NCBI GenBank assembly: GCA_964019415.1
Contig: OZ025876.1
Location: forward strand, 6,808,293-6,872,292
Reading direction: 5' to 3'
DNA length: 64,000 nucleotides
DNA from: Ianthella basta
Lineage: Eukaryota > Porifera > Demospongiae > Verongiida > Ianthellidae
In this document: positions 30,192-61,989 of the stretch, in pieces
Position numbering within the stretch: the first letter of the stretch is position 1
Layout of the letters: each line of letters begins with the position of its first letter
Notes under the pieces: model-generated
What the model saw: the letters and a program-made list of their open reading frames with translations, nothing else
Databases searched by the model: none
Told to the model about the DNA's origin: nothing
Translations under genes and position numbers: made by a program

Positions 30192-30707
30192 TGCATTTAT
30201 ATGTACCTATAACATGGCTGCCTCAGCTAAAGCAACATGGTCTATAGCTACTAAATATAACCTTACTTGTGCTGACAAATATAACTATCACAAACATGCA
30301 TTCTACATGTATGAGTATTTACTATTCCATAGAGAGTGAAAGGTGATTGTCTGCTGCCAGGTGAGGAAAAGAAGGGAATCTGCCGTCATCTTCCTGACTA
30401 GCTAGCCATGTATCCATCAGCATATGCATGGATGCCACATGCCTGATCAAGCACTGAAACAATTCAGTCATTCACACCAGCTGGCCATGTGCCCCACTTA
30501 TATATAAACTACACCCAATGATATTATACTAATAGTACACTGTATATAGCCAGTGGCTTGCATGAGAAATATTATCATTGACCATTATAAAATTAATACA
30601 ATAAGTAATGTAATTTTCGTGACTGACACAAGTATAAACAAAATTACACGCACATATTTTTTGTTGTTTCTTAACACACTGTGTTCACGCCATTGTACAT
30701 TATAATT
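30192..30707. other. 3' flank of receptor gene A, start of duplicated unit
   Basis: Homology to 49831-50640 starts near ATGGCTGCC at 30213, immediately after the minisatellite. No other gene is visible. Confidence 0.7.
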
Positions 30708-30884
30708 TTACATATCTGAGCTGTCATGGTCTGAAGACAGCAAAGTCGTATTTTCCCCAGGGTCATTATTGCCATAAGAAATTCTCAAGCTCCGAGAGTA
30801 GGAGGGGTTTTTGGCTACAGCCACAGGGAAGAAGGCATCTGGCTCAGGAGAGGAACTGACAGCATGGTAGGGTTCTCCAAATGA
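30708..30884 (-). CDS. Receptor A terminal exon: cytoplasmic tail with NPSY
   Basis: The acceptor TTCCTCAG precedes [19 protein letters not shown], and the exon ends SSDHDSSDM with TAA. The segment AKNPSYSRS contains NPSY, a tyrosine motif of the kind bound by PTB or endocytic adaptors in known receptors. The tail is Ser- and acid-rich. In copy B the equivalent segment is ARNSYSQSS, so the NPxY is lost. Confidence 0.85.
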   Translation of the reverse strand, partial: SFGEPYHAVSSSPEPDAFFPVAVAKNPSYSRSLRISYGNNDPGENTTLLSSDHDSSDM

Positions 30885-33800
30885 CTGAGGAAGGGAGGAG
30901 AGGGAAGGAAAGTCAAGTATCATTAACATAACAATTTATGTTTCTGTACTGTAGTACTTACATATATACAAAATCAAACCCTCTTAAGTACACACACATA
31001 GACACAGACACACACACACACACACACACACACACACACACACACACACACACACACACACACACACACACACGCACACACACACACACACACACACACA
31101 CACACACACACACACACACACACACACACACAGCATTCCCTACAATACTGTACAGGTTATACTAAATGTACAATACTTCCATGGGCTGCTGAGCCAACCC
31201 TCTCCACCATCATAGTTACATTTGACAGGCTAACATGTTGGAGCAAACATGAGCTATACGAGATATTGCCATGAGAACAGACTCGTCACAGCAAGCATCC
31301 ACATAATCATCAACCCCACGCAGTGCTAGCATCATAAAAGGGTACAAACAAGTCTATAAACAGTTTTGGCTGACAGCTATACATCTGCCCAGCTGTGAAG
31401 AGTTTGGCCTGCTCTCCTTTTGGCCAATCATGCACCACTTGGCATATGAACCAACGGTGGAAGCCCAGTACCAGTGCACTTCTGTAGATAATCCTAAACC
31501 TAATTCAATACACAAGCATCAAAATAATAAAAGCAAAAATTATTAAAAAACCTTACCAACAAGACAAGACGTAAGCTTATACACGTACACACTGGTAGGG
31601 GACGTTATGTAAGTATGCATGTACAGTAGAACCTCAGAAATAGGATCACCATCAGGTCCATTAAAAGTGGTCTTATTTTGGAGGTGGTCTTAATTCTGAG
31701 AGCTATGTATACATGGATTTGGGACTAAATCAGAGCGGTCTTACTTTTAAGGTGGTCATTTTATATAGGTGGTTGTTTGGTGGGGTTCCATCGTATGTGA
31801 TGTTGCGTACTAACTGTTTATAGTTTAAACATAAATTGTCTGCCTACTGTTAGTGGCTACAACATGAATGCATATGTATTGTCTTAGGCATGCTGACAGC
31901 TGGTCTGTGTAGCATGTTGTGGAATACACATAACAGTGCTCCTTGCTGTACTTATGTGCTCTGCTCAACATTGAATTGCTATTGACTGTGTTTACCAGGC
32001 TTCTACAATGATACACAGCTACATGTGTATGAGGGTTGAGTGGCCTCTAGCCCTGGCAGTTCATGCACCATTCTGTTAGCTTACTGTTGGGCTGTTGCTT
32101 CGGTAGCCATCTGCACCAATCAAGGGGTTTGTTACTGTGAAGGCACTCTCGTATACGTCTGCCTTGACCACTTTGTTCTTCCTGAATCTAAATAAAAGAG
32201 ACGTGAAGGGATAGTAAAATTGGGTTCTAAGCACACATTACGCACTACTGCAATGGGATCTTCACAGAGTAGCCTGCAGCAACTAGAAACACATTGGGCA
32301 CCTGACAGGTCCCATATAATTATATATAAGTGCGCATATGTACATAGTGCATGAAAGTGCAATGAAAGCAAACACATACACATCTGCAGGGATAGATAGG
32401 AGGTCTAAAATCTCCAAAACTGTGATTTCAAAATGAAAGAGGTGGAATGTACATCAGGGTAAAGGAACATGGCATGGAGAGACATCTACCTAGACATAGA
32501 GTTATCCACTGACACATGCAAACGTAACTGGAGTCTCCTCTCTAGCCCCTCCTCACCTCTTCACAGCCAGGAGAGCAAAGACAATTGCCAGAACAGACAG
32601 TACCACAATCACTATGATGCCAAGGATGCCTCCCACAGCCGATCCTGTACATGGGGACAAACAAGGCACAATTGACCACAGACAAGTGTGTATTGATACA
32701 GAAGAAGTATACACACAGTGCATACATGCAATATACGCACAGTATTTAATTTGTAGCTCAGGAAATATGCAGGCTCTGTACATGTACAACAGATGTGTGT
32801 CCATGCATTCTATGTATGAGCTGTATTGTAACAGTCACACCTGATGTGGGATGCATGGGTGTGCAGTGTGTGGAGGTGGGTGCGGGTGAGGGTGTGGATG
32901 TGGGTGTGCAGGATGGGTGTGCAGTGTGGGCTGGGGCTTGTGTGTGAGGGAGTAGATGTAAATGTGTGGGAGACTTGTGTCATGGTGGGTGCAAGTGAGA
33001 GAAGTTAACAGATGACACTTCTGTGGAATACAGTGTATGGGTGGTTTGGTACACAACAGAGAGTATTAGCTACAAATATGTATTGTGCAGTAATACCGGT
33101 ACTACAAAATGGAGAGATCAAACTCGGCTCCAAACATGTTCTCACCTCCAGCAATTGCCTGTTCCTCACTTGCACGATTTGCGTCCGAGGTTGCCTCCTG
33201 AACATCTTCACAGCGACTTCCTTGGAAGCCTGGAGCACACCTGAAGAATAGCAGAAGGGTACACCATTAGCTGAGCACTGAGAATAGATCGTGGCTATTG
33301 CACACTAAGTGAGGAATTCTCAGCTGGCTTGGGCATTAGAAAGGGTAGCTCTCTAATTATGTAACAGCTTAAACATAGGGTTGGAACCTTGCCAATGTTT
33401 GACCAGATGCTCTGGTCTTCTTCAGGGCAAGGTCAGAATCTAGTGTTAGCACTTGTCATTCATAGCCATGCTTGCATCTCATCATTCGCTGTCACAGGAT
33501 GTAAGGCAAGTCTGAGGTGGCCTTGTATTTACAGTAATAAAACTACTAACATACAATTATTGCTCACCCAAAAACCGTACTAGAAAAATGAACATTGTCA
33601 AGGCAATCGTGTCAGTATGCGGGTTTACAGGCATATTACAAGGGCAGTTTAAATGAATCATTCTATCACACCACCCACTAAATCCCTTTTAAAAGTTTTC
33701 ACTACTTACAAGCAAGCCAGTCGATTGTTGAAAATGATGCAAGTCCCATTGTTAAGGCAGAATCCTTCAACACACGCCCCTATAAAATGTACAAAGAGAG

Positions 33801-60569: not shown

Positions 60570-61125
60570 TTATCTACATGCAGGCATGCAAGCTCCTCAC
60601 AAGTGTTACACAAACAAATTCACTGTCATCCTTGACACATTACAGTACACAAGCCCTGTATTACCCCACCCCACACTGCTTGAACCATCCTTTCTCCTCT
60701 TTATCTAGTCATGAAGGTCCAGTGTGGCAGCTGGACTGGGCCCACCCCAAATTTTTAGTAGCGTCCTTGATTCCTGTTCGTATGACCGTAAAGTTATCAT
60801 CTAGACAGCTGTTTCACCCTAATCAGGGCTCATCAGTGTGACGTACTGATGGATGGCGAAACAGTTGTCTGTGGCCCTACCATCTTTGTAGGATGACTAG
60901 CGGGGGAAGGCTGTGATCACTGGTTGCCATCAATAGGGCGTGATGCCCCCCAGCCTCCTGAGACACCATTGATGTAGAGAAGGCTGGTTGGTGTAAAATT
61001 TCCAGTGATTAATCTAGCTGTGTCAACCAATCCTCAGCAGTGGATCAATTGCAAAGGCTACAAACTGTCCTCTGAGTCTAACGGGACTTGGGCCAAACTG
61101 TACGAGTTTAGGTTCACAAGTCTTC
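60570..61125. mobile_element. Insertion carrying hammerhead motifs
   Basis: About 550 bp splitting the GT tract, absent upstream of receptor A. Its part from 60860 resembles 7090-7290. It holds one well-formed and one degraded hammerhead in opposite orientations. Probably terminal-repeat sequence of a Penelope-like or related retroelement. Confidence 0.55.
60797..60845 (-). ncRNA. Hammerhead ribozyme-like motif
   Basis: On the minus strand: CTGATGA (60836-60830), helix II GCCC with GGGT around TGATTA, GAAAC (60815-60811), palindromic stem III ACAGCTGT, then C at the cleavage position. The core is intact but helix I pairing is poor. A degraded plus-strand copy (CTGATGG...GAAACAGTTGTC) follows at 60846-60869. 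Confidence 0.55.
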
Positions 61126-61159
61126 TGGTGTGTGTGTGTGTGTGTGTGTGTGTGTTTAT

Positions 61160-61989
61160 GTGTGTACCTGTGCAGTGTGTGCCTCATGAAAAGTGGGCAT
61201 GTTTCCTACCTTTGCGGTTCATGTTCACTGCATATACTAGATTGTTCTGGGCACTTGTACTGAAGCAGCTCTCACATTTGTGACCCAACTCAAACCATAG
61301 AGAGCCCAGGTTTGTACAATTCTCATGCTTATGCTCATAGTCCCCAGAGAGATGCATAAATCCCCAGAGGGTTGCCTAAATCCCCAGAGGAATGCCATAT
61401 TCCCTAGCAAATTTCAATTGGTCCTGTGGTCACATGCAAAGGTGCAATTGCAAGGGATGCCAGGAATAACTGTTTCATGTAGATTGTGAGAGAATTACCC
61501 ATTGAGTTTTCAGTAGGCTTGCAAGTTGAGGTGTACATACATACATAGCCAATGCCTTCCATGGTAAGTATTATGCTACATGTGTAGCTTTGCTGCATGG
61601 TGTCCTAAGATGGATCGTGTTGTGTTTGCTGCATGCAGTGGTGGACAAAGGGCAGCATTCAGTCATTGTCCACCACATGCAGTGAAGATAGGGAGATGAG
61701 GAACTACAATATAGTGAAGCAACTGTCAGTAAGCGAGACACAGTACACGTGCATGTTCTAGTTTGGCAGCTTGGTGCTTCATTTAACACTCCAGGTGACA
61801 AACAGACACACTATGCACACCTGCACTGACTGACACATGCACTTGTACACTCGTGCATGTATGTATGCACCCTACCACATATATACGCACACACAGTCAT
61901 GCCTTCTGTACAAATAGCAATTGAATGCAGCGACATATCTTGCACTATACAATACCCAGTAACATAGAACATTTCCAGTTCCACCTCAG
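61160..61989. other. Intergenic, no gene recognised
   Basis: Homology with the region upstream of receptor A ends near 61260. A short triplet of CCCCAGAG-containing repeats lies at about 61340-61400. Confidence 0.5.

Follow-up and report, generated by a model that had tools for sequence, protein, structure and literature searches.

Within a 64-kb window of the sponge Ianthella basta genome (contig OZ025876.1, positions 6,808,293 to 6,872,292), two neighbouring tandem copies of a gene for a putative giant receptor with an array of epidermal growth factor (EGF)-like modules were found, designated A and B, both encoded on the minus strand and bearing intact reading frames. From sequence comparison, it is highly probable that gene B is a shortened, and probably still translated, paralogue of this EGF-array receptor. 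When rebuilding the gene models, A (30708-48937) was resolved into 12 coding exons (9549 nt) encoding 3182 aa with a single terminal stop, and B (50664-60197) into 11 coding exons (2892 nt) encoding 963 aa, with GT-AG borders and closed phases for the introns of both genes, which bears out a preliminary description of the window as containing cleanly spliced tandem receptors of these two lengths. When a single regular expression is applied to both genes, A shows 63 EGF-like modules and B shows 16, corresponding to a fourfold difference in array length with about a quarter of the modules present in B; the earlier counts of about 60 and 13 had omitted the last three modules, which are located in small 3' exons.

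Both deduced proteins have a signal-peptide-like start, an N-terminal domain of about 190 residues, the EGF array, a membrane span and a short tail. In A, the N-terminal domain is encoded by exons 1 and 2 (48937-48700 and 48126-47864, all coordinates of A and B referring to exons on the minus strand) together with exon 3 (44450-44324), while exon 4 (42323-43617) carries EGF modules 1-8 followed by the beginning of a second domain of this type, and exon 5 (35195-42062, 6868 nt) carries the remainder of this second domain, a 224-aa Cys/Ser/Gly repeat spacer and EGF modules 9-60. The spacer is encoded by a 99-bp tandem repeat (41240-41843, 6.1 copies) and is absent from B. The membrane span resides on A exon 10 (32557-32644) and B exon 9 (51612-51699), respectively, and the tail ends are encoded by A exon 12 (30708-30884), carrying the motif NPSY, and B exon 11 (50664-50837), which falls 3 nt short of its counterparts in A and copy C (see below). 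B exon 4 (54469-55977, 1509 nt) consists of the 5' part of an A-type exon 4 fused to the 3' part of an A-type exon 5, intron 4 being gone. Among the exons compared, identities between A and B range from 77.7% (exon 11) to 98.9% (exon 10), for which the term "near-identical" used previously for the flanking exons is too strong.

For deciding which array length is ancestral, two further copies are informative. The N-terminal domain occurs at four loci in the genome (209 Mb in 96 contigs, labelled C7, C9, C13, etc., in the following), all of them on the contig of the window, with 12 exon matches, three per locus. Copy C (C9:5900101-5917197, plus strand; 12 exons, 3105 aa, one stop), located 0.9 Mb from A, has 63 modules corresponding one to one to those of A (63/63). 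In copy D (C9:5943923-5928540, minus strand; 4048 aa), modules 1-58 match those of A in the same order (58/58); beyond them, an acidic Ser/Asp/Lys stalk made up of 34 units, each 38 aa long, leads to a membrane span with hardly any tail behind it. The repeat spacer comprises 147 aa in C and 25 aa in D. A and C are collinear over 9.8 kb at 92.8%, and A and D over 5.8 kb at 96.2%. Moreover, four-point sums of synonymous divergence (dS) over modules 33-41 group B with A (0.194 for AB+CD versus 0.286 and 0.291); D was dropped beyond module 58, as the sequence is not homologous there and dS values for D would be meaningless. Since the long array is common to A, C and, up to module 58, D, the ancestral form would have been long and B shortened, and from these comparisons we regard it as settled that the 63-module array is ancestral and B the derived short copy. 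The reverse course, in which the array of A grew by module duplication and B retained an ancestral short form, has a precedent insofar as arrays of this family can expand: residues 262-1474 of the related Dysidea avara protein P0121 form an internal tandem repeat (619 columns, 88.7% identity). For A and B, however, it is scarcely credible, as C and D hold the modules of A in the order of A although B branches with A, and as the B exon is a fusion with one intron lost and the acceptor moved. Stalk-and-span ends like that of D are also present in other minus-strand frames of C9 (at about 5.919, 5.949, 5.970, 5.987 and 6.000 Mb), the one at about 5.919 Mb adjoining an exon that encodes a variant of A's second domain. 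With such related frames nearby, D has therefore most likely exchanged its 3' end for a neighbour-type stalk.

Comparison of the two loci by blastn (leaving out pieces below 150 nt or overlapping better ones as well as minisatellite matches) and by dot plot, as the preliminary description had proposed, shows the matching pieces to be collinear, with three places in the coding array where B lacks sequence present in A. These losses, termed J0, J1 and J2, amount to 131, about 4952 and 1830 nt, respectively, and the remaining fused exon is in frame. Together, they took 47 modules net (1 + 30 + 16 = 63 - 16), the second domain, the spacer and intron 4. Consequently, B1 equals A2, B3-B10 equal A34-A41 and B12-B16 equal A59-A63, whereas B2 and B11 are hybrid. 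The two joins through which B had been derived from A were correctly placed, one leading from A module 3 to module 33 (then counted as exon 5 module 24, a numbering off by one) and the other from module 42 to module 58 (then 33 to 49, at PCMNGGTC), while the third loss, J0 at the start of B exon 4, had been missed.

The J2 join is sharp and lies inside a 19-nt word (54793-54811, minus strand) common to both parent modules, with exact matches in A module 42 (37349-37367) and A module 58 (35519-35537); accordingly, the word has three occurrences in the window, two in A and one in B. Among the 1953 pairs of A modules, this shared word ranks third, just two pairs sharing a longer one, and modules 42 and 58 also share 18 nt in C (rank 4 of 1953) and 23 nt in D (rank 1 of 1653). 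A join inside one of the three longest exact words of 1953 pairs is more than expected by chance and thus good evidence for module-module recombination, so that an origin of J2 by recombination between EGF modules can be considered well supported.

In contrast, the J1 join is not sharp. It leads from A module 3 to module 33 (an offset of 4952 nt in A), and the sequence removed includes the remainder of exon 4, intron 4, the second domain as well as the spacer. In A, the longest exact word common to these two modules has 8 nt, which places the pair at rank 730 among 1953. Over its final 43 nt, the hybrid agrees with module 33 at 40 positions, whereas its first 74 nt (55806-55879, minus strand) have no close donor, with A3 (56/74) and A28 (53/74) as best candidates. 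No module of A, C or D exceeds 56/74, and a whole-genome search for a donor of this orphan stretch, at its sensitivity, retrieved six places, each within one of the four copies and none better. With only 8 nt shared and 74 nt lacking a good donor, the sequence does not demonstrate a single clean crossover between today's modules 3 and 33; J1 may have arisen in several steps, have received tracts from more than one module by conversion, or have changed rapidly once the join had formed. In the 54 codons around this join, B shows 17 nonsynonymous and 5 synonymous changes. At J0, finally, B goes from intron 3 into A module 2, the missing 131 nt having contained the old acceptor and module 1, and this is a transition from intron to exon and not a module-module join. 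B exon 4 would now be spliced at an AG of former exon sequence, the new acceptor being CACACCAG (55978-55990, minus strand). The earlier proposal of unequal recombination between EGF repeats is hence upheld for J2 and less clearly supported for J1, with its 8 nt and missing donor, while J0 does not fit it.

The losses could also be taken as products of ordinary double-strand-break deletions, with module homology being irrelevant and the reading frame kept by chance, as J0 joins an intron to an exon and the modules at J1 have exactly 8 nt in common. However, both J1 and J2 keep the register within the module, yielding hybrids with all six cysteines, and J2 falls within one of the three longest words, so that we consider such an origin of the losses possible but improbable. 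Still less likely is an assembly artefact, either by collapse of the B array or by placing two alleles in tandem. Many introns of A and B reach 88-95% identity, and in marine animals of very high diversity, alleles can be strongly diverged; but the window is free of N bases (the 5 kb directly after it reading as N in the sequence available), the modules retained in B show private differences on either side of every join, the duplication does not extend beyond a single gene unit (about 30.2-49.2 kb and 49.8-60.6 kb), and the long array of A is found independently in C at its distant locus.

For assessing selection on B, changes were counted with C as outgroup over 947 codons, excluding 21 codons changed in more than one copy. 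The resulting ratios of nonsynonymous to synonymous changes are 72:46 for B, 21:20 for A and 32.5:41.5 for C. In the EGF modules retained in B, the ratio is 25:28, whereas simulation without selection at two transition/transversion (ts/tv) rates gave neutral means of 38.0-39.5 nonsynonymous changes out of 53. This nonsynonymous deficit (P 0.0007 and 0/3000 for the two rates) shows purifying selection on the retained modules. The length changes in the two end exons of B compared with A and C (-6 and -3 nt) and in exon 10 (+6 nt) are all multiples of three. B hence looks like a translated gene with relaxed ends. The tail, however, is evolving fast also in A (6:2) and C (6:1), and its looseness is therefore not special to B.

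Several findings weigh against B being a shortened, still translated copy, some of them being compatible with a decaying pseudogene. Over the whole coding sequence covered by B, the bias is modest (72:46, P 0.0013 or 0.0097 depending on the ts/tv model), and the N-terminal exons (13:8) and the tail (17:5) are indistinguishable from neutral. The lack of stops in B (P = 0.04 under neutral evolution) is not very strong evidence, and the ratio of B differs significantly from that of C (Fisher p 0.018) but not from that of A (p 0.277). Moreover, the selection signal on the B branch may be partly older than the deletions, dS over modules 33-41 is higher between A and B (0.139) than between A and C (0.118) or A and D (0.089), and J1 lacks a clear donor. 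Nevertheless, a pseudogene, to which the loss of the NPxY motif would also fit, appears unlikely considering the frame intact across 11 exons, with the end-exon and exon 10 length changes in multiples of three, and the selective constraint on the modules that B has kept.

Identities among the four copies vary along the genes in a mosaic fashion. In introns 1-3, A and B are 92.6-95.3% and C and D 87.9-97.1% identical, while A and C reach 69-86% (local pieces 77-81%). From exon 4 to about exon 11, the identity between A and C climbs to 92.8-94.5%, except for the repeat spacer, with 89.1-95.4% in introns 5-10, and drops beyond to 74-81%. This A-C tract, with lower identity on both flanks and found at loci 0.9 Mb from each other, is most readily explained by gene conversion. 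The high-identity tract is also present in B, less sharply on the 3' side, and the conversion is therefore probably older than the A-B split. Intron 6 is exceptional for B, with 80.8% identity to A and 81.7% to C. In addition, about 1.1 kb of A intron 2 (45465-46555) is nearly without counterpart in B (27 bp remain), possibly because A acquired an insertion or B lost this sequence.

The tails of A and C carry an NPxY motif (NPSY and NPFY, respectively), which is not present in B and D. In B, the Pro codon is gone from AACCCCTCC, which now reads NSY. MEGF10, Draper and CED-1 have been described as engulfment receptors of modular build whose tails contain NPxY or ITAM (PMC8092387), and the NPxY motif of MEGF10 binds GULP, a binding abolished by mutation to APxA (PMC1762421). 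These proteins resemble A in having an EGF array, one membrane span and NPxY in a short tail (PMC8092387, PMC1762421), and the MEGF10-like tail accordingly suggests, by analogy, an uptake or adhesion receptor. However, they carry an EMI domain, for which no match was obtained in the A and B pieces scanned, and despite the resemblance, the A family is therefore not a member of the MEGF10/Draper/CED-1 group. With Notch, A and B share long arrays of modules of about 38 residues, but Pfam scans of A exons 4 and 5, the A C-terminal part and the whole of B gave EGF-type families and none of the Notch-specific domains LNR, NOD and ANK, and the tails of A and B comprise only about 90 residues. In A exon 4, a sub-threshold match to DUF6338 was obtained. 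Crumbs and eyes shut proteins are plentiful among the matches listed for A exon 5 and B, although laminin G domains among the EGF modules, typical of such proteins, were not found in the A and B pieces scanned.

The N-terminal domain has no convincing Pfam match, either in a six-row alignment or in the A and B scans, and the PDB profile search with this alignment gave no match up to E 10. Protein searches with A exon 5 (7924 candidates scored, best 120 of 6452 matches listed) and B (best 120 of 5190 listed) are dominated by general EGF proteins. The top match of B is protein P0121 of the demosponge Dysidea avara, bearing the name "neurogenic locus notch homolog protein 1-like isoform X2", in which the N-terminal domain occurs three times (36% identity over 185 columns, E 6e-32). 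Among the matches listed, this is the only occurrence of the domain found outside the I. basta genome, and a search with part of P0121 within a limited length range (182 candidates) retrieved only P0121 itself. Like A and B, this protein combines the N-terminal domain with EGF arrays, a membrane span and, in its tail, NPTY, but it is shorter than A (1657 aa), has 24 EGF-like modules when counted with the same expression, and carries the domain-plus-EGF block in internal tandem. Within I. basta, a distant paralogue on contig C13 (C13:2759001-2762747) matches the A-type second domain at 49% identity, its frame encoding Cys repeats, Pro/Ser repeats, the second-type domain, a membrane span and a tail with NPGY and several NPAY motifs (repeated FENPAY). 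A phage search with the A 3' end gave no match and is uninformative. Among the literature titles listed as matches, none concerns this receptor family or an EGF-array contraction in a receptor pair, although such work may exist; the family looks little studied.

Taken together, an ancestral 63-module gene persists in A and C and, up to module 58, in D. In B, the loss between modules 42 and 58 would have come about by recombination via the identical 19-nt word, through unequal exchange or a deletion within a single strand, the product being the same for both, while the loss between modules 3 and 33 may likewise have been module-guided and then reworked, or have occurred in several steps, and the J0 loss would have been repaired by using the AG of the former exon. 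A and C might function as adhesion or uptake receptors with the array as ligand-facing rod and the NPxY tail recruiting PTB-type adaptors. As B has retained both ends and the membrane anchor but not NPxY, it would be expected to arrive at the surface, uncoupled from such an adaptor. These receptors probably make up a sponge family in which complete forms exist beside reduced ones. More speculatively, and with rather low probability, the four copies could constitute a working set in one animal, with A and C complete (63 modules, NPxY) and B and D reduced in different ways, where recombination among modules and with neighbouring stalk genes as well as tracts copied between loci would yield ligand-binding, non-coupling decoys or pure adhesion forms in sponge-type recognition.

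Array contraction as such is a process of a known kind. Other tandem-repeat genes also show concerted evolution, with repeat number shifting by recombination and paralogue tracts being homogenized; interlocus gene conversion has reportedly been studied, and intragenic homogenization is said to occur in spider silk genes. Unlike these, the present case concerns a large receptor of an animal, of which one copy has gone from 63 down to 16 modules while two others are unchanged, and the receptor family with its reduced members is the more interesting aspect. Neighbouring genes with the same ends, a fourfold array difference polarized by C and D, and the loss of the tail motif provide a natural experiment, by which the roles of array length and of the tail in a giant EGF receptor become testable. 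Moreover, a receptor family is added whose N-terminal domain has no Pfam or PDB sequence match.

Next to gene A, a 33-bp minisatellite with 349.7 copies extends over 18623-30190 and ends 28 bp from the end of the A-B homology at 30218. Allowing up to two mismatches, its unit has 2309 matches genome-wide (1450 forward and 859 reverse; control 0), with places listed on C7, C9, C10, C18 and C20. The window also contains an open frame (1343-1885) resembling what we take to be a Tc1/mariner-type transposase, and two open frames (8755-9582 and 15655-16434) that presumably encode a pair of related endonuclease/exonuclease/phosphatase-type proteins. On the plus strand, a match to the type I hammerhead ribozyme is found at 7048-7092 (35.5 bits versus a gathering score of 34). 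Elsewhere in the genome, two EGF-rich open frames of 2839 and 1569 aa in opposite orientation (C14:5385883-5407567) might represent a second pair of unequal length.

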